Shown: positions 13,509 to 24,478 of the stretch, one piece after another
Position numbering within the stretch: the first letter of the stretch is position 1
Layout: each line of letters opens with the position of its first letter
Translations under genes and position numbers: made by a program
NCBI GenBank assembly: GCA_020852475.1
Contig: JADZAR010000159.1
Span: 1 to 43,047, forward strand
DNA length: 43,047 nucleotides
DNA from: Nitrosomonas sp.
GTDB taxonomy: Bacteria; Pseudomonadota; Gammaproteobacteria; Burkholderiales; Nitrosomonadaceae
Reading direction: 5' to 3'
The notes under the pieces: generated by a model
Databases searched by the model: none
What the model saw: only the letters and a program-made list of their open reading frames with translations
Told to the model about the DNA's origin: nothing

Positions 13509-14690
13509 TCAAGATAGAGCGCTTTGAATATTTCTGAGCGCCTGCATGATAATTTCCCGTGGCGCGCCGATATTCAAACGCATAAAACCGCTGCCCTCAT
13601 CGCCAAACAAAGTTCCCGGACTCATGCCAACTTTGGCTTTTTGGATAAAGAAATGTTCTAAATCAGCGTCATTCATGTTTAATGCGCCGCAATCAAGCCA
13701 GAGCAAATAGGTGCCTTCTGCTGGAATCAGTTTGATCTGTGGTAATTGTTCCGACAAAAAAGCTGACACACAGTCTCGGGTGTCGTGTAAGTAGAGGCGC
13801 AACGCTTCCAGCCAGGCCTCGCCTTCGCGGTATGCGGTTTCGAACGCGGTGACGCTGAACGGATTGGATGCGCTGACATGCCAGGTGTTGAAGACATCGG
13901 TAATCGATTTGCGTAACGTTTTGTCGGGAATAATCAGTGCGGATAGATTTAAGCCCGGAATGTTAAAGGTTTTGCTCGGCGCCATTGCCGTAATGACCCG
14001 ATTCGCACTGTCCTCGAGTGTCGCCAGCATGGTATGCTGATTGCCGGGATAAATCAGATCGGCGTGAATTTCATCGGAGAAAATGACGAGGTCATGTTTC
14101 TCGGCAATCCGCAGCAATCGCGCCAATTCGTCAGGAGACCAGACACGGCCAACCGGATTATGCGGCGAACAGAACAACAGCAGGCGAGCATTCGCATCAC
14201 GGATGCACTGTTCAAGATGATCAAAGTCCATGACGTAGCGGCCATGTTCGCGTTTCAATGGATTTCGGATCAATGTCCGGCCCGTCTGGGTCACTGCCGA
14301 AAAAAACGGAAAGTAGACGGGCGGTTGAATAATGGCTGACTCGCCAGGCTGAGTCAGCGCCATCACCGTGGCGTTGAGTGAGGGCACTACGCCTGGGCAC
14401 ATAACAATCCACTCCCGCTTGATCGTCCAGGCATGTCGCCGCTGCACCCAGTCGATGACCGCTTCAAACAGGCTGTCCGGATACAGTGTGTATCCATATA
14501 TCGGATGTCTGGCGCGCTCAATCAACGCTTCGGTAACCGCGGGTGGCGCAGGGAAATCCATATCGGCCACCCATGCCGGTATCACATCCGGTTTGCCGAA
14601 CATGGCCTGCCGTCCGTCGTATTTAGTGCTCTTTGTTCCCGCGCGCTGAATTATCCGGTCGAAGTAACCGGAATCAAATTCATTAGTCAA
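13509..14690 (-). CDS. MalY/PatB-family PLP-dependent C-S lyase/aminotransferase (candidate OvoB)
   Basis: Fold-type I PLP enzyme with YGYTLYPDSLFEAVIDWVQRRHAW, FCSPHNPVGRVW, SDEIHADLIYPG and the PLP Lys in APSKTFNIPGL. Start overlaps the ovoA stop by 4 nt. Confidence 0.85.
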   Translation of the reverse strand: MTNEFDSGYFDRIIQRAGTKSTKYDGRQAMFGKPDVIPAWVADMDFPAPPAVTEALIERARHPIYGYTLYPDSLFEAVIDWVQRRHAWTIKREWIVMCPGVVPSLNATVMALTQPGESAIIQPPVYFPFFSAVTQTGRTLIRNPLKREHGRYVMDFDHLEQCIRDANARLLLFCSPHNPVGRVWSPDELARLLRIAEKHDLVIFSDEIHADLIYPGNQHTMLATLEDSANRVITAMAPSKTFNIPGLNLSALIIPDKTLRKSITDVFNTWHVSASNPFSVTAFETAYREGEAWLEALRLYLHDTRDCVSAFLSEQLPQIKLIPAEGTYLLWLDCGALNMNDADLEHFFIQKAKVGMSPGTLFGDEGSGFMRLNIGAPREIIMQALRNIQSALS

Positions 14691-16816
14691 GAAATTCTCT
14701 CCCAGAGAGTCACTTCTGACAACGTATGCTGGTGTTTGTGACTTGTTTCCCGAATGACGAACGGCACCTGTTGCGGTCCCTGTATCAGTCTGAAATGCTG
14801 GCCTAGTACTTCTTTCAGACCATCCAGCGTGGTGAAGTTTTCGCCATCGCGTTTAAAACCACCGATCCAGAATTCCCGCCGGGTATGTTCGGTGAGCCAG
14901 GTATAGGGTGAGGCAATCATCAGCAATCCGCCAGGATTAATGCGTGTATGAATCGAATGAAGTAATTTGACCGGTTCATAAAGACGATCGATCAGGTTGG
15001 CTGCCAGAATCAGATCATAGCCCGAAAACAGCGGCTTCAGATTGCAGGCGTCGCCCTGATAAAACTCGACTTTGTTCTTGACGTTTTCCAGACCCAGGCC
15101 GGTCAGGGTGCGCTCTCTGTAAAACACCAGATCACCTTCATCAATCAGCGTATAACGCAGTATGCCTTGTTGCGCCAGCTGTACACCCTGACCGATAAAG
15201 CGCGCCGAAAAGTCGATGCCTGTCACGTGATTGAAATGACGCGCAAGCTCAAATGTGGCGCGACCTGATGCACACCCCAGATCCAGCGCTTTTCCGGCCG
15301 GCCGGTCACCCATGGCTTTGATCGCGATTTCAGCAAGCGCCCGGGGGAAATTGGGCACGTCAAAATAGGTATCGCCATAATGAAATTCAGCGTATTCCGA
15401 TAGCAGTTTGTCGGTTTCGTAGTTTGATGTCTGTATCGCAGCTGGCGCATCGGAAACGACATAGCGAAAACCGGCGTGCTGAAAAAAATGCCTGCGGAAA
15501 GCGTAGCGCGAACTGCGCAGTGTTTCGTTACCGCAGGAAATCCACGAACCGCCCTTGATCAGATTATGCTGATTGTCAAAAGTCGGCGTGGTGAAATCAT
15601 CGTACAAGGGATGTACGTCAAAACCTTCAAAAGGATAAGTTGGCGTCTCCGTCCATTGCCAGACATTGCCAATGACATCGTAAAAATCCCCTTGTGGAAA
15701 TGCATTAACCGGACAACTGGATGCGTAATAATCAAGATGCAGATTACCCGCTGCCGGTTTGTCATGCGGCACTTCAGACAATCCCGCCAGATCGTATAGG
15801 CGGTACCATTCGTCTTCGGTAGGCAATCTGACGGGCTGACCGGTTTTTTTGGCTTTCCAGTTGCAAAAAGCCTTGGCTTCATGATAGTTGACGTCAACCG
15901 GCCAGTCCCATGGCATGGGAATTTCATCCGTCATGGTGCGCATGAACCAGTCATTGCCCTTCCTGACCCAGAAGGTCGGCTGCTCGGCCTTGCTGAAGTT
16001 GCGCCACGAAAGACCTTCTTCCTCCCAGTAACGATCCGTTTGATAACCGCTGTCCTTGATAAAGGACAGGTATTCCTGATTACTGACAAGATATTTGCTG
16101 GCCTGAAAAGCAGCCACATCGGCACTATGCGCGCCGTACTCATTGTCCCAACCGTAATGCTGATGCGTGGCCTTGTTTTTACCGATCGCTACCGCGCCAG
16201 CAGGTACACTGATCAGCTCATTTTCCGGCGCGGCGCCTGTTTTCTCGCAAGGCATCCAGTCTTCGTGCGGTTGAACATATTCCAGGGCATGCTGGCGGAT
16301 CAATACTGACGAAGTCTCCAGATGAATCTGTTCATGCTCTATGCCCATGAGAATCGGCCAGAAAGGACTCCCCCAGGTAATTGGCAATGTCAGCGGTAAA
16401 TCACTGATTAGTTGATCCACCCTGTTGCGCATTTTTCTGCGATATTCGGTGACTTCCGTGGCAGTGGGCCAGTCGTAATGCTTGTTATCGAGGTCGTCCC
16501 AGCTCATTTCATCCACGCCGACCGCGAACATGGATTCAAAACGCGGATTGATGCGCTCGGTAATCAAGCCGGCCAATATCAATTTGTTCACAAAGAAAGT
16601 CGCGGTGTGGCCATAATAGAAAATCAGCGGATGGCGCAGTGCAATGGGTTTTTTATAATACGCGGCGTCGTTGCGCAGTGTTTTAAACAGTTGCTCGTAA
16701 CAATCCAGCGTACCGTGAAAATAAGCGCGTATCTCTTCGCGCTTGGCATTGACGTCATCGCCATAAAGCAATGGTGTTCTTTGAATCTGTGGTCTAGGCA
16801 TATTCTTTATAGTCAA
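14687..16816 (-). CDS. ovoA: 5-histidylcysteine sulfoxide synthase / 4-mercaptohistidine N1-methyltransferase (OvoA)
   Basis: DinB-like plus FGE-sulfatase domain with HEQIHLETS (HX3HXE), KGGSWISCGNETLRSSRYAFRRHFFQHAGFRYV, and a C-terminal class I methyltransferase (LDLGCASGRATFELAR). The architecture is that of OvoA rather than EgtB. Confidence 0.9.
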   Translation of the reverse strand: MTIKNMPRPQIQRTPLLYGDDVNAKREEIRAYFHGTLDCYEQLFKTLRNDAAYYKKPIALRHPLIFYYGHTATFFVNKLILAGLITERINPRFESMFAVGVDEMSWDDLDNKHYDWPTATEVTEYRRKMRNRVDQLISDLPLTLPITWGSPFWPILMGIEHEQIHLETSSVLIRQHALEYVQPHEDWMPCEKTGAAPENELISVPAGAVAIGKNKATHQHYGWDNEYGAHSADVAAFQASKYLVSNQEYLSFIKDSGYQTDRYWEEEGLSWRNFSKAEQPTFWVRKGNDWFMRTMTDEIPMPWDWPVDVNYHEAKAFCNWKAKKTGQPVRLPTEDEWYRLYDLAGLSEVPHDKPAAGNLHLDYYASSCPVNAFPQGDFYDVIGNVWQWTETPTYPFEGFDVHPLYDDFTTPTFDNQHNLIKGGSWISCGNETLRSSRYAFRRHFFQHAGFRYVVSDAPAAIQTSNYETDKLLSEYAEFHYGDTYFDVPNFPRALAEIAIKAMGDRPAGKALDLGCASGRATFELARHFNHVTGIDFSARFIGQGVQLAQQGILRYTLIDEGDLVFYRERTLTGLGLENVKNKVEFYQGDACNLKPLFSGYDLILAANLIDRLYEPVKLLHSIHTRINPGGLLMIASPYTWLTEHTRREFWIGGFKRDGENFTTLDGLKEVLGQHFRLIQGPQQVPFVIRETSHKHQHTLSEVTLWERIS

Positions 16817-17145
16817 TTCATTATTTGGATTTGGCGGGTATTATAACGCTTCAAAGAATTGTTTATCACTTGCATCAAGCAAATTAAGTCCCTCATGTCA
16901 TTGGGGATTTTAAATGCAATACGTTCTGACAGGGCAAGTACGCTGTCTGACAGTCATTCGTTTCGATCAATAATGTGAACTTGGAAAACGCCAACCAGGC
17001 GTGCGATCAGAACGCCTCGCGCGCTGCGCGGACAATAAGTTGAGAGACATATTGATTCAATTGTATTTAATTGATAGCATTGGAATTTTTAACGTTTTTG
17101 AGAATCTGCAAACGCTCACCATGCCTGTCTGCGGATAGTAGTCTT

Positions 17146-18177
17146 ATGATAAACGAACGGCGCAACTTCTACCGACTGCTGAATGTTCAACCCGATGCTA
17201 CGCTGTCGGTGATTACAAGCTGTCATCGTGTTCTGATGCAGAAACTGCATCAATGCGTCGATCAGGATTATGCCAATACGCGGGCGCATATACTGAATAC
17301 CGCTTTGATCGTCCTGCAGGACCCGTTAAAACGTAGCACCTATGATCGTCGGCTACGCAAACAGTATTCGATCAGAAAATTGAGTCTGGGTTCTTTTGCT
17401 TCAAAGTCGGCTACCCATGCGTTGGGACAGGAGGGTAAAATGGCCGCCGGCAACCGGCGCAATTATTACCGTATATTGCAGATTCAGCCTGATGCACCGA
17501 CGGCTGCCATCATTGCCAGTTACACCGCATTAGCAGACTATCCTTTGCAGAACCAGGATCTTCTGAGCGAGGCTTTTGCCGTACTGGCGAATCCGGCGAT
17601 ACGCCTGCGCTATGACGACTTTCTCGCTGGCCGCATTCATCCGCGACCAGAACAATCACCATCTGCAAGCCAGTATGGTGCATTGACTCGAAGAATCAAT
17701 GTAAGCACCAGTAAACACCCATGCACCCAATCGGAAACGACAGCAGCTCTGTATCATTGCGTCTTTTGCCATACGCCGTTTGTGTATCAGCTGACGCTTT
17801 ATCCAAGCGCATTATGCCTGGAATGCGGCAGTCCTTTGCCCATTGCGACTATTATCGATCAAAGCGGATTGTGCAGCCAAAATCATCGCGCTTGCGAGCG
17901 TACCAGCGCCGCTGGAGCTCTTGCATTTTATCTGTGTTGGCCTGATACGCCGCGCCATGGCGTGCTGCAGGATTTATCGCCGAAAGGCATGGGTTTTTTA
18001 ACGCGCTCACCGCTGGGTGTTGGCAACGTCATTAAAATAGAAACGCCGCATTTCAGTGCGATTGCGGAAGTTATGCGTATCCAGCAGGCAAAAGACGACT
18101 ATGTTTCCGCCGGCGCACGCTTTCTGACGGTAAAATTTACACAGGAACGCGGCAATTTTATTGTTGCGCAGGCATGA
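17146..18177 (+). CDS. Tandem degenerate J-like domains, zinc ribbon, PilZ domain protein
   Basis: NFYRLLNVQPDATLSVITSCHRVLMQKLH and NYYRILQIQPDAPTAAIIASYTAL (J-like, no HPD), CVFC...CLEC zinc ribbon, PilZ-like LQDLSPKGMGFLTRSPLGVGNVIKIE. The ORF is open from 17071, but MINERRNFYRLL at 17146 is the natural start. Confidence 0.75.
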   Translation: MINERRNFYRLLNVQPDATLSVITSCHRVLMQKLHQCVDQDYANTRAHILNTALIVLQDPLKRSTYDRRLRKQYSIRKLSLGSFASKSATHALGQEGKMAAGNRRNYYRILQIQPDAPTAAIIASYTALADYPLQNQDLLSEAFAVLANPAIRLRYDDFLAGRIHPRPEQSPSASQYGALTRRINVSTSKHPCTQSETTAALYHCVFCHTPFVYQLTLYPSALCLECGSPLPIATIIDQSGLCSQNHRACERTSAAGALAFYLCWPDTPRHGVLQDLSPKGMGFLTRSPLGVGNVIKIETPHFSAIAEVMRIQQAKDDYVSAGARFLTVKFTQERGNFIVAQA

Positions 18178-18183
18178 TACCTG

Positions 18184-19287
18184 TCAGCGCATCATTGCCT
18201 TGCTTTTTGCCTCAATGGCGCGCACTGTTTTATAAAGCAGGTGCGGTAACAAGATATGCAGTGGCATGCGTATCAGATGACTGCGCAAGTAGAGTATCCA
18301 GCGCGCCAGCGCAGCCCGTTTCATCGGCCTGTCCGGGTGCTGTGGAAACAGGGCCAGCGGAACCAGCCGGTGCATTATCCTGCGTTTCAAGCTGCCGGGT
18401 TTTGCATGTAACTGATCCGCAACGCCTTCCGGCACAGGCGTCTTGAAAATCAGCTGACTGAAATAAAGACCGTAATACAGGATGCATCCCAGTTTCAGTT
18501 GATTGGCGCGATCAATGAGTAGCTTCCAGAAATCGTTATTCTGACGACTGAAAAAAAGCAGCAAGTCATGCAAATCCAGCAGATCGCGCAAATCGTCGGC
18601 CAATTCATTATTCTGAAAAAGATTCAGCGCGCAATGCAGCGTCATGTCGATCGGGCAGAGTAGTCTCACCTTGGCGAGCGATGTTGTCTGCGCATTTGCA
18701 AACAACAATCCGCTATCAATTTTTAACCGGCTGGTCAATGGTGCAAGGGTATGATGGATGTCGACCTCGGTTTCCCGTTCAGCGTGGATAAGCGGTGGAA
18801 TCTCATGACTCCAGACACGATAGTAGTGCTCGTCATATACTGAAATCTGACGATGCCGCCATCCCTTCACCTTGAGTAGTGATTCGATATCGGCCAGATC
18901 GTCAGCAGGAACCAGCAGGTCGAGATCAACCGACAGTCTGCCTTCGGCATAAGGCAAGCCAGTCAGTGCATAGGCAGCGCCTTTGAGCGCAACAATGGTG
19001 GTATCAAAATCCTCCAGCGCCCATAAAATTCTGTCCAGTTCCCACAGCGCCGATTGTCGTAGCTTGGTGGCCTGAATCAACGCGGATGTCAGCTGATTTG
19101 TCGTCCGTAGCGGCGCGCACGCCCAAAGGTCGTATTCTTTTACCAGCAAAGCCAGGCGTCCCAGCAGTTTTACGCGTCTCGCCAGCCGGATTAACAACTC
19201 CCATTCTGCATTCGTGTAATGCGCAAGGCATGCCGGGTTTGTCAGCGCTGCAAGCAGAATCTGATGATGGCGGTAGTCAGGATTCAT
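18184..19287 (-). CDS. Uncharacterised nucleotidyltransferase family protein (NTP_transf_5-like)
   Basis: TTIVALKGAAYALTGLPYAEGRLSVDLDLLVPADDLADIESLLKVKGW...VDIHHTL. Matches the KG(A/S)...R..D.DLLV pattern of this family. Confidence 0.85.
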   Translation of the reverse strand: MNPDYRHHQILLAALTNPACLAHYTNAEWELLIRLARRVKLLGRLALLVKEYDLWACAPLRTTNQLTSALIQATKLRQSALWELDRILWALEDFDTTIVALKGAAYALTGLPYAEGRLSVDLDLLVPADDLADIESLLKVKGWRHRQISVYDEHYYRVWSHEIPPLIHAERETEVDIHHTLAPLTSRLKIDSGLLFANAQTTSLAKVRLLCPIDMTLHCALNLFQNNELADDLRDLLDLHDLLLFFSRQNNDFWKLLIDRANQLKLGCILYYGLYFSQLIFKTPVPEGVADQLHAKPGSLKRRIMHRLVPLALFPQHPDRPMKRAALARWILYLRSHLIRMPLHILLPHLLYKTVRAIEAKSKAMMR

Positions 19288-20185
19288 CGGTCAACTGATG
19301 CAGTGCAGTGGTAACTTCATCCAAATCGGAATAGGTCAGCGTATAGCAATCGCACTGGGCAACCAGCTGCTCAACTGCGCGAAATCCGCTTGTACCAAGC
19401 ACTTCATAGTTGAAGGCGTTACTGGCCAGCAGCATGAACGCTTCGGCATCGGCAATGGGTTCCAGTTGTGTCGTTGCTTGTGCAATCCATTTGGGAAAAA
19501 TAATCCAGCGGGCTTTTGCTGTATTTTCAGACAAGCGCATGCTTTCCTCGGGCGGACGAACATGTGCGACAGTGCCTTTGTGTGTATTCGGTATCGACTG
19601 ACCGATTATGGCCTTCGGTAGAAGCTTGCGGATCACTGCGATGGATTCATTCTTCAGCGGCATCAGGCGAGGTATCGGATAAAAAACACCACGCCGGTAA
19701 TCCATTAATCCAAATTCGTCGGAAAATAGGCGGAATCCACGATGACACAATGCTGTGCACAGTGTGGTCTTGCCGCTGCCCGGCCAGGCCGGAAACAGGA
19801 TCGTCGCGCCTTTTTTTTCAACTACCGCGGAATGCAGCAATAAAAGATGATTGACGCGAACGGCTATCGCAAGATTGATTCCCCATTCCAGCACAGCCAG
19901 CGCCTGTTCTTCCGGAAAACTTTCAAAGGGAGATTGACCATCAATCAGAAAACGGACATTCAATCTCAATGGATTTCTGATTGAACGTTCGGTATTGATG
20001 CGTACATGAAACTCGATAATTTCGTCATGCACCAGCCGGTAGTGACTGTATAGCCCATAGAGCTGTTTGATGAGCGGCAGGTGTTGCGTGTTTATCCGCA
20101 CATTGAAAGGGCCCATCGCTACCTTGAGGCCCTGGTTCTGCAGCAGCATGCGGAATTCCTGAAATGGAACCTGATTGACCGTCAT
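19277..20185 (-). CDS. HprK-related kinase A
   Basis: P-loop FPAWPGSGKTTLCTALCHRGFRLFSDEFGLMD, MPLKNESIAVIRKLLPKA, KGTVAHVRPPEESM, typical of the HPr kinase-related A family. Confidence 0.88.
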   Translation of the reverse strand: MTVNQVPFQEFRMLLQNQGLKVAMGPFNVRINTQHLPLIKQLYGLYSHYRLVHDEIIEFHVRINTERSIRNPLRLNVRFLIDGQSPFESFPEEQALAVLEWGINLAIAVRVNHLLLLHSAVVEKKGATILFPAWPGSGKTTLCTALCHRGFRLFSDEFGLMDYRRGVFYPIPRLMPLKNESIAVIRKLLPKAIIGQSIPNTHKGTVAHVRPPEESMRLSENTAKARWIIFPKWIAQATTQLEPIADAEAFMLLASNAFNYEVLGTSGFRAVEQLVAQCDCYTLTYSDLDEVTTALHQLTDES

Positions 20186-20196
20186 GCTTTGAATCG

Positions 20197-20472
20197 CTAA
20201 CTTTCCTTTTTAATTAAACCCAATGCATCAAAATGATAGAGTATTTTTTCAATATTGTCTTGAAAGTTTTTATCCGGCGCCTGTCCGGATTGCCTGCTCA
20301 GATAGTCACAGATTTCCTCGGTTGAAGCCGGGCGCTGGCTTAAAAAAGACAGCATATCCATACTTGTCTGATTAAAAAAATGCGTCTTTCCGGAATCGGG
20401 CTGAAACACCGTATATTCATCATTCCAATTCGCAACCAGCAGCATGCGAAAATTATTCGATAGCCAGCGCAT
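20197..20472 (-). CDS. PqqD-family peptide-chaperone-like protein of the HPr-rel-A type
   Basis: 91 aa: YTVFQPDSGKTHFFNQTSMDMLSFLSQRPASTEEICDYLS...HFDALGLIKKES, a PqqD/RRE-like fold. Directly upstream of the HprK-related kinase. Confidence 0.8.
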   Translation of the reverse strand: MRWLSNNFRMLLVANWNDEYTVFQPDSGKTHFFNQTSMDMLSFLSQRPASTEEICDYLSRQSGQAPDKNFQDNIEKILYHFDALGLIKKES

Positions 20473-20508
20473 TGAGTGTGCGAATTCTTTCTGAGGCTTT
20501 AATTTGTA

Positions 20509-20988
20509 TCACAGTATCATCAGATTATCGAAAGCACTTGTCTTGGCCGCAATAGAGGTAAAAGCCGCTCCCGAAATCATGATGCCGCCAAGCATATGAC
20601 AATTTTCCAATTGTTCATTTTTTTTTGCCAGGATTGTTGCGGGATCATCGGTAAGCGGATGTATCGGCGGATTGGTAATCAGGGTATACCCCGGCGTATC
20701 GCCCAGATCATACGCGCCGCTATCCAGTTTCTCCTTCGGCAGCACACAAAGCAATTGAGGGCCATTGCCCATATTGACAAAGACAGCTTCGGTGATCGAA
20801 GCGGCTTCTCCGGTAATATTGCTGGTACGCGCCAAAGCTGCGCCACTGTATAACGTCATAACGACAGGAAGTGCAGCGCCGCCTTTTAGCAGCATTCTTC
20901 TTTTCTGTTTTTTCGCGCTGCTTTGTTGACACATTTTTTGCGCGGACGCTGAATGATTGTTTTGTTCGAATAATTTATCTTTATCCAT
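20509..20988 (-). CDS. Small exported protein with Tat-like signal; possible client of the HPr-rel-A system
   Basis: KKQKRRMLLKGGAALPVVMTLYSGAALA: RRxxLK followed by a hydrophobic stretch and an A-x-A-type site. First gene of the operon. Confidence 0.65.
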   Translation of the reverse strand: MDKDKLFEQNNHSASAQKMCQQSSAKKQKRRMLLKGGAALPVVMTLYSGAALARTSNITGEAASITEAVFVNMGNGPQLLCVLPKEKLDSGAYDLGDTPGYTLITNPPIHPLTDDPATILAKKNEQLENCHMLGGIMISGAAFTSIAAKTSAFDNLMIL

Positions 20989-21316
20989 ACGACTTAATCT
21001 CTTCTGTTAAAAGCGCTAACTAAAAATTTTTGCTGCTGTTTTTTCAACGGCAGATCAAAGGCAACATGACTATTCAATCATCATAAAAAAATGTGGAACC
21101 CAATTTAACACGCACGCTGGACACCTATTGCGCGAAAAATGCACAGACTGTCCTTATTTAATATACAAGCAATTTTCGGGCCAGTTTTGATAAAAAATTA
21201 TATCTCTTTGAAAATAAGAATATTTAAATATTGTCTTGCCCGTTCATGAAGAATCAGGGTTTGAGGTGTAAAAAAAATCGACACCTTTCTTGATCCCACG
21301 AATAGAAATCCGCGCA

Positions 21317-24300
21317 TTATTTCTGCTTTTCATTCTTTTTCATTCCACTGGCAATCTGGTACAACACCGGAAGAACCAGCATGGTCAGCGCGGTAGAAGT
21401 CAGGATACCGCCGATGACGACCGTCGCCAATGGTCGCTGAACTTCAGCGCCTATACTGACAGCCAGCGCCATGGGTACAAACCCGATCGCGTCAGTCAGG
21501 CCGGTCATTAAAACAGGCCGAAGCCGCGTTAGTGCACCCGTTTTGACAGCGTCTTCCAGCGTGTAATTTTGTTCGCGCAGATTGCGGATGAATGTTAACA
21601 GCACCAGACCATTCAGTACAGCGATGCCTGACAGCGCGATAAAACCGATTGCCGCAGAAATGGAGAACGGTATATCCCGTAACCAGAGCGCCAGAATTCC
21701 GCCGGAAAGCGCAAAAGGCACCCCGGTAAAAACCAGCAAGCCATCGCGTAAATTGCCGAACATCAAATACAGCAGCATAAAAATCAAACCCAGCGCAACC
21801 GGCACGACAATGACCAGACGTTCCGTCGCGGAAACCAGCTGTTCATACTGTCCTCCCCAGGCGATCCAGTAACCGGGCGGAATCTGCACTTCGCTGGCGA
21901 TACGTGACTGCGCCTCGTGCACGAATGAACCCAGATCGCTGCCGCGCACATTGGCGCTGATAACAACCCTGCGTTTACCGTTTTCGCGGCTGATCTGATT
22001 TGGGCCTTCAATCACATCGAAAGTCACAACATCGCCCAGCGTCAGATAAGCCGCAGGGGGAGCGGCTGCATTGGGTTGTACATTCAAGACCGCATTCGGT
22101 AGCTGAATAGGCAGCCGTTTCAATGCATCGATATTCCCGCGCAATGGTTCCGGTAGACGAACAACCAGATTAAAACGACGGTCGCCTTCGTAAATCAGGC
22201 CGGTAGGCAATCCTCCGACTGCAATCGCGATAACATTTTGAACATCTGCAACATTCAATCCGTAACGCGCCATTTTAGCGCGGTCCATTCGAATGGACAG
22301 CATCGGCAGGCCGGTCAGCTGCTCAATTTTCGTATCCGCAGCGCCGGGGATGGTTTCGATCACTGAAAGAATCCTGTCGCCGACATCATGCAGCACATCC
22401 ATGTTGTCGCCAAAAACCTTGATCGCGACATCGGCGCGCACACCCGATATCAATTCGTTAAAACGCATTTGTATCGGCTGCGTGAATTCATAATTATTGC
22501 CCGGCACAGTGTTGACCGCCCGCTCCATGGCGGCGATCAGTTCGGCCTTAGTTTTATAAGACCCTTCCCATGCATCCTGATCCTTCAGAATGATAAAAAT
22601 ATCGGCGACGCTGGGCGGCATCGGATCGGTTGCGATTTCCGCTGTACCAATCTTGGAAAACACGCGTTCAACTTCCGCAAAGGTTTTGATTTTTTCTTCA
22701 AGCTCGTTTTGCATCTCGATGGCCGTGGTCAGACTGGTGCCGGGAATACGGATCGCATGCAGCGCAATATCGCCTTCATTCAGACTCGGTACAAACTCGC
22801 TGCCCAGCCGGGTCGCTAGCAATCCGGAAAGCACCATGACCGTAACCGCCAGCGTAATCGTTAATGCCTTGTTGCGCAGCACCCAGTTCAGCATGGGCAG
22901 GTAGAGCCGCTTGGAAAACACAACCACCTTGCTTTCCTTGTCCTGGATATCACCGCTCAGGAAAAGCGCCACCGCCGCGGGAACAAAGGTGATCGAGAGA
23001 ATAATGGCGCCAACCAGCGCAGTCACCACGGTAAAGGCCATCGGATGAAACATTTTGCCTTCGACGCCGGTAAGTGCAAAAATCGGAATATAAACAATCA
23101 TGATGATCAACTGTCCGAAGAGCAGTGCTCTGCGCGTTTCCTTGCTGGCCGAAAAGACAACCGACAGCCGCTCGGACAGCGTCAGACGCCTGCCGAGCCG
23201 CGCTTGTTCCTGCGCCAGATGACGGATGCAGTTCTCAATAATGACGATGGCGCCGTCAACGATAATACCGAAGTCCAGCGCACCGAGACTCATTAAATTA
23301 GCGCTGACATCATTGGCGACCATGCCGGTCAAGGTAAATAACATGGACAGCGGAATCACCAGCGCGGTAATCAGCGCCGCGCGCAAATTGCCGAGAAACA
23401 GAAACAGCACCACAATAACCAGAATTGCGCCCTCGGTCAGATTGGATGCGACCGTTTGTATGGTTTTGTCGACCAGCGTCGTGCGGTTGTAAACCGGCGT
23501 CGCAACAATGCCCTCAGGCAGGTTGCGATTAATTTCGTCGAGCTTTGCCGCCGCAGCCTTTGAAACAATCTGGCTGTTTTCACCGATCAGCATGTGCGCC
23601 GTTCCCAATACAACTTCCCGGCCGTTTTGCGTCGCGGCGCCATTGCGCAATTCCTTGCCGATAATAACTTCGGCCACGTCCTTGATGCGTATCGGAATAC
23701 CTTGCCGGCTGCCAAGAATAATTTCACCGATTTCCGTCAGATTGGCGACCTGACCGGGAACCCTGACAAGATATTGTTCGCCGCTTCTTTCAATATAACC
23801 CGCGCCGACGTTCAGATTGTTAAGTGACAATGCCGTCACGACATCCTGCAGCGTCAAGCCCATCGAAATCAGCTTTTCCGGATAGGGCGTTACATGAAAC
23901 TGCTTGACATAGCCACCAACTGAGTTGACTTCGGTCACGCCGCGAACAGTCAATAATTGCGGACGGATAATCCAGTCCTGAATCTCGCGCAGATCCGTGG
24001 TTGTATAAGCTGTGCCATCCGGTTTTCTGGCGTCTGCCCGGGCATCGACCGTCCACATGAAAATCTCGCCCAGTCCGGTGGAAATTGGCCCCATGCGCGG
24101 CTCGATTCCAGTCGGCAGGCGATTTCTGGCTTCCTGTAGACGCTGACTGACCAGCTGACGGGCGAAGTAAATATCGGTGCCGTCTTTGAAAACAACGGTA
24201 ACCTGCGACAGGCCGTACCGTGAAAGCGATCGCGTGTAATCGAGATGCGGCAGCCCCATCATGATCATTTCGATCGGAAAAGTCAGTCGCTGCTCGGTTT

Positions 24301-24478
24301 CCAGTGGCGAATAGCCCGGCGCTTCGGTATTGATCTGCACCTGAACATTGGTAATATCCGGTACTGCGTCAATCGGTACTTTCTGGTAACTGTAAATACC
24401 CAGCAAAGCCATCGCCAGCACCGCCACCATGACCAGGCCACGGTGATCTATAGAAATCTGTAAAATACGTTCAAACAA
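21317..24478 (-). CDS. czcA: CzcA/CusA-type heavy-metal RND efflux pump
   Basis: 1053 aa. SLGALDFGIIVDGAIVIIENCIRHL is the CzcA-type TM4 motif. Full-length RND. Confidence 0.92.
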   Translation of the reverse strand: MFERILQISIDHRGLVMVAVLAMALLGIYSYQKVPIDAVPDITNVQVQINTEAPGYSPLETEQRLTFPIEMIMMGLPHLDYTRSLSRYGLSQVTVVFKDGTDIYFARQLVSQRLQEARNRLPTGIEPRMGPISTGLGEIFMWTVDARADARKPDGTAYTTTDLREIQDWIIRPQLLTVRGVTEVNSVGGYVKQFHVTPYPEKLISMGLTLQDVVTALSLNNLNVGAGYIERSGEQYLVRVPGQVANLTEIGEIILGSRQGIPIRIKDVAEVIIGKELRNGAATQNGREVVLGTAHMLIGENSQIVSKAAAAKLDEINRNLPEGIVATPVYNRTTLVDKTIQTVASNLTEGAILVIVVLFLFLGNLRAALITALVIPLSMLFTLTGMVANDVSANLMSLGALDFGIIVDGAIVIIENCIRHLAQEQARLGRRLTLSERLSVVFSASKETRRALLFGQLIIMIVYIPIFALTGVEGKMFHPMAFTVVTALVGAIILSITFVPAAVALFLSGDIQDKESKVVVFSKRLYLPMLNWVLRNKALTITLAVTVMVLSGLLATRLGSEFVPSLNEGDIALHAIRIPGTSLTTAIEMQNELEEKIKTFAEVERVFSKIGTAEIATDPMPPSVADIFIILKDQDAWEGSYKTKAELIAAMERAVNTVPGNNYEFTQPIQMRFNELISGVRADVAIKVFGDNMDVLHDVGDRILSVIETIPGAADTKIEQLTGLPMLSIRMDRAKMARYGLNVADVQNVIAIAVGGLPTGLIYEGDRRFNLVVRLPEPLRGNIDALKRLPIQLPNAVLNVQPNAAAPPAAYLTLGDVVTFDVIEGPNQISRENGKRRVVISANVRGSDLGSFVHEAQSRIASEVQIPPGYWIAWGGQYEQLVSATERLVIVVPVALGLIFMLLYLMFGNLRDGLLVFTGVPFALSGGILALWLRDIPFSISAAIGFIALSGIAVLNGLVLLTFIRNLREQNYTLEDAVKTGALTRLRPVLMTGLTDAIGFVPMALAVSIGAEVQRPLATVVIGGILTSTALTMLVLPVLYQIASGMKKNEKQK

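Follow-up and report, generated by a model that had tools for sequence, protein, structure and literature searches.

A conserved HPr-rel-A operon of Nitrosomonas joins a Tat-signal protein to a predicted serine-modifying enzyme set

We analyzed a 43,047-nucleotide stretch of DNA from a Nitrosomonas sp. (positions 1 to 43,047 of contig JADZAR010000159.1, assembly GCA_020852475.1; hereafter the window), which belongs to a 3-Mb genome and contains a four-gene operon for a 159-aa protein with a twin-arginine translocation (Tat)-like signal (the precursor), a PqqD-like protein, an HprK-related kinase and a nucleotidyltransferase (Table 1). The operon probably adds a phosphate, and then a further group, to a serine near the mature start of a dedicated exported protein before its export, and is probably switched on with surface-matrix (PEP-CTERM/exopolysaccharide) genes. 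In the reading that we favor, and consider reasonably likely, the kinase modifies the precursor at Ser56 under the guidance of a recognition element of the type known from ribosomally synthesized and post-translationally modified peptides (RiPP recognition element, RRE), and Tat exports the product. Our confidence is higher for the substrate relation and for the regulon than for Ser56 and Tat, and lower for the nucleotidyltransferase chemistry and the surface role.

The four open reading frames (ORFs) are intact on the minus strand and tightly packed, with 36 bp between the precursor and PqqD-like genes, 11 bp between the latter and the kinase gene and an 11-bp overlap of the kinase and nucleotidyltransferase genes, in accordance with the initial annotation of the window, whose coordinates are retained in Table 1. 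Its assignments of the three enzymes were likewise borne out by searches with hidden Markov models (HMMs), all with scores above the curated cut-offs. The kinase matched TIGR04352 with 352 bits (cut-off 200), the PqqD-like protein matched PqqD_rel_X TIGR04353 with 60 bits (cut-off 35) and the nucleotidyltransferase matched PF14907 (NTP_transf_5) with 160 bits (cut-off 31); the precursor had no match in this family search of the window proteins. TIGR04352 and TIGR04353 are both components of the “HPr-rel-A system”, to which the three enzyme genes are assigned on the basis of these sequence matches. The terms HPr-rel-A and HprK-related kinase occur in no paper of the literature searched and, as the annotation had stated, the system has no assigned function as far as that literature shows.

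Among 125 genomes of the same family (Nitrosomonadaceae), 32 encoded the kinase above cut-off and exactly 30 encoded a protein found with the precursor profile, always in single copy and beside the kinase, with none in the other 95. In the two additional kinase genomes the kinase was divergent, and neither PqqD nor a precursor was found. As a separate observation, loci L032 and L033 (genomes G002 and G003) carry an over-cut-off HprK_rel_A kinase and a nucleotidyltransferase; upstream of them neither a PqqD gene nor a Tat precursor was found, the upstream sequence available being short for L033. The order precursor, PqqD, kinase, nucleotidyltransferase repeats in 29 other Nitrosomonadaceae loci. 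In a wider sample, the kinase exceeded the curated cut-off in 61 of 399 Pseudomonadota genomes, and the TIGR04352 search of these genomes, together with a scan of genome contigs with the kinase alignment, gathered 152 loci. A PqqD gene was present in 132 of the 145 loci with enough upstream sequence, and a Tat-signal-like ORF (90-420 aa) lay directly upstream of PqqD in 119 of these 132, against a background of 92 Tat signals in 2619 other ORFs (3.5%) of the same size in the same loci. Some of the remaining loci do show a Tat-signal ORF on reading, missed by the pattern or by the start-site rule. The four-gene arrangement is far beyond chance, and the Tat-signal gene is a fourth, obligate part of the HPr-rel-A system. 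If the 159-aa protein were merely co-regulated, with the kinase and nucleotidyltransferase acting on another protein or on a small molecule, the variation of the genes around the cassette among lineages (RND, that is resistance-nodulation-division, efflux; XrtA amidotransferase; EpsE-type export) would be in its favor. This explanation is nevertheless quite unlikely, given the exact genome-by-genome co-occurrence, the gene order fixed across Pseudomonadota, the RRE fold beside a leader-bearing gene and an invariant serine whose distance from the leader anchor is fixed, as described below.

The 91-aa PqqD-like protein was modelled by AlphaFold2 (AF2) with a predicted local distance difference test score (pLDDT) of 93, and the best PDB match of the model in Foldseek was the lasso RRE TbiB1 bound to its leader (5v1v; template modelling (TM) score 0.75, E 9e-4), with the lasso B1-leader complex 6jx3 and PqqD 5sxy among the other top matches. 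A sequence search against the PDB gave nothing useful, the RRE being recognized by the fold search only. The model points to a winged-helix RRE of the lasso type. In the kinase alignment, His118, the Walker A motif, Asp156-Glu157 and Thr201-x-Lys203-Gly204 were invariant, and the kinase profile aligned best, over residues 115-158, to the HPr kinases 1jb1, 2qmh and 1ko7 (E 0.002-0.003). This distant HprK resemblance would suit an HPr kinase/phosphorylase operon of the phosphotransferase system (PTS), but TIGR00679 was not among the family matches of the cassette kinase and the genome encodes a separate HPr kinase elsewhere (contig C86; TIGR00679, 341 bits). A true HPr kinase identity was rejected on these grounds, and a PTS-type operon is hardly credible. 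In the nucleotidyltransferase (alignment A4), Asp121, Asp123, Asp176 and Arg117 were invariant and the catalytic carboxylates intact; a D-x-D motif plus a further aspartate are the carboxylates that the pol-beta nucleotidyltransferase fold is expected to have.

The initial annotation had proposed a modification system that combines an RRE fold with a leader-bearing substrate, and had listed the conservation of the small leader-bearing gene upstream in homologous loci as a point in its favor and a true HPr kinase acting on PtsH as a point against. The sequence-level checks that it suggested support this proposal on each count, including the modelled RRE fold of the 91-aa protein and the separate HPr kinase. 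As the annotation had also remarked, neither a radical SAM enzyme nor a protease lies next to the operon; the family matches of the window genes revealed no peptidase, cyclase or dedicated exporter near the cassette. The annotation had not included the recognition of the leader as a Tat signal, the particular serine, the parallel with the linear polyphosphorylated peptide (LPP) clusters of Bacillota or the PEP-CTERM-box/RpoN promoter.

The precursor leader contains a twin-arginine motif, a hydrophobic stretch and an AxA site, as expected of a Tat signal, and TatC is encoded in the host genome (226 bits). Signal-peptidase cleavage is predicted after ALA (Ala53). Across 30 precursors, the invariant residues were R30, R31, L33, K35, P41, T45, L46, S48, A51 and A53 on the leader side and S56, N57, C81, D94, G96, C130, G135, S139, A142 and S145 on the mature side, with S56 and N57 as the sole invariant residues between the predicted cleavage site and residue 80. 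AF2 modelled residues 1-56 as disordered and residues 57-159 as folded with high confidence, which places Ser56 at the boundary; the predicted acceptor would thus lie where a flexible segment meets the folded part of the protein, fitting Tat export. The folded domain, which is about 100 residues long and has conserved cysteines, had no PDB fold match (best E 1.8), and a sequence search of the precursor against the PDB gave nothing useful. Excision of the precursor core as a diffusible small molecule or short peptide, as in a RiPP natural product, would be in keeping with the combination of an RRE and tailoring enzymes, a RiPP hallmark, and with the kinase and NTP transferase shared by LPP and lasso clusters. 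Such a product is very unlikely in view of the confidently folded mature part, of the lack of a peptidase, cyclase or dedicated exporter nearby and of the precursor lengths in other lineages (90-300 aa).

The LPP clusters, reported from Bacillota in 2026, comprise a precursor, an HprK-like kinase, an RRE and an NTP transferase (PMC13381572). Their leader consensus is YxxPxVLxHQxIxFET/xxS (the slash separating leader and core), with Pro-13 sandwiched by residues of the RRE LppB, and LppK phosphorylates Ser3 of the LppA core AQSNWK (PMC13381572). When the YxxPxV motif is laid over the cassette leader, Pro-13, a hydrophobic residue at -11 and Ser+3 are present and Tyr-16 is absent. The precursors fall into classes, of which class I (Nitrosomonadaceae) reads RRxLLKxxxAxPVIMTLxSGAALA/R[TS]SN followed by two cysteines, YDLG and GGIxIS; class II has a C-terminal SCWxSF and lies near the XrtA/PEP-CTERM amidotransferase TIGR03108 in 8 of 17 loci; class III (Burkholderiales, Gammaproteobacteria) has C..PSGF.SGN.S...C.G.SPGYWK; and class IV (sphingomonads) has QTAGSVLNCEIPVP...GFTCFASLQMPR. 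Precursor class tracks the kinase tree (4 changes against a minimum of 3 and a shuffled mean of 31) and also tracks species relationships. Counted from the anchor (the leader proline or, in class IV, its equivalent), position +15 is a serine in 28 of 29 precursors of class I, in all 17 of class II and in all 8 of class IV, with variable neighboring positions; the class IV leader is two residues shorter, yet the anchor-to-serine spacing is the same. A serine at mature +3 was found in 5 of 49 other signal-like ORFs.

The same system could instead use another acceptor, the kinase modifying the C-terminal serine motif [S/T][C/A][W/F/Y]xS at Ser145 or Ser139. Both serines are invariant in class I, classes I, II and IV share a serine within a C-terminal motif, [ST][CA][WFY]xS[LFI], and the kinases of paeninodin and pseudomycoidin modify a C-terminal serine (PMC9266682). 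Against this acceptor, AF2 places Ser145 in a helix and Ser139 at a helix cap, inside the folded domain, no such motif was observed in class III, and the match of the leader-to-serine spacing with LPP favors Ser56; we regard modification at the C terminus as unlikely.

Several points weigh against RRE-guided modification at Ser56. Class III, the largest precursor class, lacks the fixed-spacing serine and has a Cys- and Ser-Gly-rich start instead, and in L037, of class I, the stretch from proline to serine is longer by two residues; a universal ruler with a serine at anchor+15 was rejected on these two grounds. YxxP RRE motifs contain a Tyr/Trp that the leader does not have, Tat or signal peptidase could instead be the reason why its proline and hydrophobic residues are kept, and the kinase has D-E where the published motif of lasso kinases has D-D. 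Members within each class are related, and the class counts given above are therefore not independent events. The nucleotidyltransferase step is weakened by LppN, which had no detectable effect in the published heterologous host.

The 328-bp gap ahead of the precursor gene contains both a putative PrsR site (motif 1) and a sigma-54 promoter element (motif 2), with 83 nt between them and 179 nt from the latter to the ATG. In proteobacterial PEP-CTERM genes, a 17-nt motif ending in TTTACA is followed by a spacer of 63 +/- 11 (32-92) and a sigma-54 site (PMC1569441). The motif pair was found upstream of 25/29 class I and 29/62 class III precursors (expected 0.00 and 0.02, respectively), and the same architecture precedes five PEP-CTERM genes of the same genome, where eleven PEP-CTERM genes scored over the cut-off. 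PrsR was over cut-off in 56 of the 125 family genomes, among them all 30 with the cassette. Within genus g1, the cassette occurred in 27 of 33 PrsR-positive genomes vs none of 52 PrsR-negative genomes and, in the phylum sample, PrsR was found in 24 of 25 kinase genomes outside the class II families and in none of 36 within those families, the Fisher tests on this association ignoring phylogeny. In one genome that kept the cassette, the PrsR match (G013:C1:2610633-2611634) has four in-frame stops, and the regulator may be decaying. A scan for sigma-70 promoters and terminators gave results near chance. The PEP-CTERM tail model TIGR02595 had no match on the window contig, and the precursor is without such a tail. 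Judged from its sequence, the operon carries a PEP-CTERM-box/sigma-54 promoter and has the features of the PrsR/RpoN regulon. PepA, an RpoN-dependent PEP-CTERM protein, takes part in floc formation (PMC9850573), and a matrix role of the cassette is accordingly plausible as a hypothesis.

From these computed features we infer the following chemistry and biology. Transcription would start from the sigma-54 promoter with its PrsR-type PEP-CTERM box upon PrsR/RpoN induction. The PqqD-like RRE would bind the Tat leader of the precursor in the region of Pro41 and pass the protein to the HprK-like kinase, and may mask the Tat signal until modification is complete. The kinase would phosphorylate Ser56 (mature Ser3) in the cytoplasm, at a fixed distance past the anchor and in a flexible tail before the folded domain, and the nucleotidyltransferase may then add a nucleotidyl or sugar-phosphate group to the phosphoserine. 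The folded, modified protein would be exported by Tat and cut after ALA by signal peptidase I. We propose that the host Tat system and signal peptidase I do the work for which the LPP clusters of Bacillota have an ATP-binding cassette (ABC) exporter and an SpI-like peptidase, which would explain why the cassette has no LPP-type peptidase or exporter. The product would act where PEP-CTERM proteins act, in the exopolysaccharide or at the cell surface.

Table 1 Features of the operon and of its upstream region (positions in the window).
Feature	Positions	Strand	Basis
PEP-CTERM box motif 1, TGTCGATTTTTTTTACA, putative PrsR site	21267..21283	(-)	Motif described in PMC1569441
Sigma-54 promoter element (motif 2), TGGCCCGAAAATTGCT	21168..21183	(-)	Sequence match
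Precursor (RR protein), 159 aa	20509-20988	(-)	ORF, alignment of 30, AF2
Leader/Tat signal region, residues 1-53	20830..20988	(-)	RRMLLKGGAALPVVMTLYSGAALA/RTSN, conserved in class I
Twin arginine R30-R31	20896..20901	(-)	Invariant in 30-member alignment
Pro41, leader position -13, proposed RRE anchor	20866..20868	(-)	Invariant; matches LppA Pro-13 position (PMC13381572)
Ser56, mature +3, predicted phospho-acceptor	20821..20823	(-)	Invariant; 15 residues past Pro41
PqqD-like RRE (modelled), 91 aa	20197-20472	(-)	TIGR04353, AF2, Foldseek
HprK-related kinase A, 302 aa	19277-20185	(-)	TIGR04352, invariant residues, HPr kinase profile matches
Kinase Walker A, G136-T141	19763..19780	(-)	Kinase alignment
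Nucleotidyltransferase NTP_transf_5, 367 aa	18184-19287	(-)	PF14907, D121-x-D123 and D176 kept

The immediate neighbors of the operon in the window encode a CzcA-type RND efflux protein, a DnaJ/PilZ protein, OvoA and PatB. The CzcA-type gene (21317-24478) lies 328 bp upstream of the precursor gene, and the cassette is downstream of such a gene in 25 of 29 Nitrosomonadaceae loci (L034-L062). Convergent with the cassette, the gene at 17071-18177 (+) encodes an unusual protein with a DnaJ domain in its N-terminal part, another DnaJ-like stretch and, in its C-terminal part, a weak match to PilZ. OvoA (13509-16816, minus strand) is a fusion of 5-histidylcysteine sulfoxide synthase and methyltransferase, with both TIGR domains over cut-off, and is directly followed by a PatB-type C-S lyase gene; the two likely form an operon for ovothiol A in which the lyase would take the place of OvoB. 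Related genes were also seen outside the set described above. In another Nitrosomonadaceae genome (locus L063, G062:C3), a 144-aa PqqD-like ORF overlaps a weaker HprK-like kinase ORF among different neighbors. At L064 (G003:C49), the ORF of a weaker HprK-like kinase (403 aa) comes after that of a 104-aa twin-arginine protein built from repeats rich in Gly, Ser and His (GGSRFHGGSRGGSGWF); the two may be a related pair of kinase and substrate that does not belong to HPr-rel-A. A metagenome-assembled genome of Phycisphaeraceae (L166, contig labelled Planctomycetota) has a PqqD-like gene and a kinase 39% identical to that of the window, which reflects either horizontal transfer or a binning error.

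For HPr-rel-A, we thus propose which protein is the substrate, which residue is the likely acceptor, how the product is exported and to which regulon the genes belong, and each of these points is testable. If true, RiPP-type leader recognition would extend from short peptides to folded, Tat-exported proteins, the LPP chemistry of 2026 would be linked to Gram-negative bacteria, and a second kind of protein marking would exist in the PEP-CTERM/exopolysaccharide world. More tentatively, and with some doubt, the system might be a widespread Gram-negative counterpart of the phosphorylated RiPPs, in which the leader bound by the RRE doubles as a Tat signal peptide, a phospho- or glycophospho-serine is made in the cytoplasm near the mature N terminus of folded proteins, RRE binding delays Tat until the modification is in place and export occurs within the PEP-CTERM/exopolysaccharide programme, the product perhaps being joined through phosphate to a surface polysaccharide.

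Compared with known systems, the cassette shares all three enzyme genes, over cut-offs, with HPr-rel-A as defined in NCBIfam (TIGR04352 kinase and TIGR04353 PqqD-family chaperone), whose family names make no mention of a substrate gene with a Tat signal, an acceptor serine, a parallel with LPP or a PEP-CTERM-box promoter. The SynChlorMet cassette (ScmC, ScmD) has a similar pair of HprK-like and PqqD-like proteins, with weak HMM cross-matches, but our scores are far under the Scm cut-offs and the radical SAM enzymes are missing from the cassette. The PEP-CTERM/exosortase regulon (EpsH, PrsK/PrsR; PMC1569441) is alike in the pairing of motif 1 with the sigma-54 motif 2, in PrsR co-occurrence and in the exopolysaccharide loci of some cassette lineages, whereas the precursor differs from PEP-CTERM proteins in its Tat-like signal and the lack of their tail. 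The lasso peptides paeninodin and pseudomycoidin likewise use an RRE, an HprK-like kinase and a nucleotidyltransferase as a tailoring set, and in the pseudomycoidin cluster the same enzyme types phosphorylate a serine and then append a hexose (PMC9266682); unlike them, the cassette has no adjacent macrolactam cyclase or B2 peptidase and no acceptor serine at the extreme C terminus. Membership of either the LPP or the lasso group was rejected on the absent cyclase, peptidase and exporter, and both were retained as analogies. The cassette differs from LPP clusters in having no adjacent SpI-like (SipW-type) peptidase or MsbA-like exporter, class I loci keeping the same four-gene core, and in its Tat signal peptide as leader, its folded mature product and its Gram-negative hosts; the two are alike in bringing together a kinase, a discrete RRE and an NTP transferase, in leader Pro-13 and Ser+3, in their variable cores and in their frequent location in polysaccharide loci.

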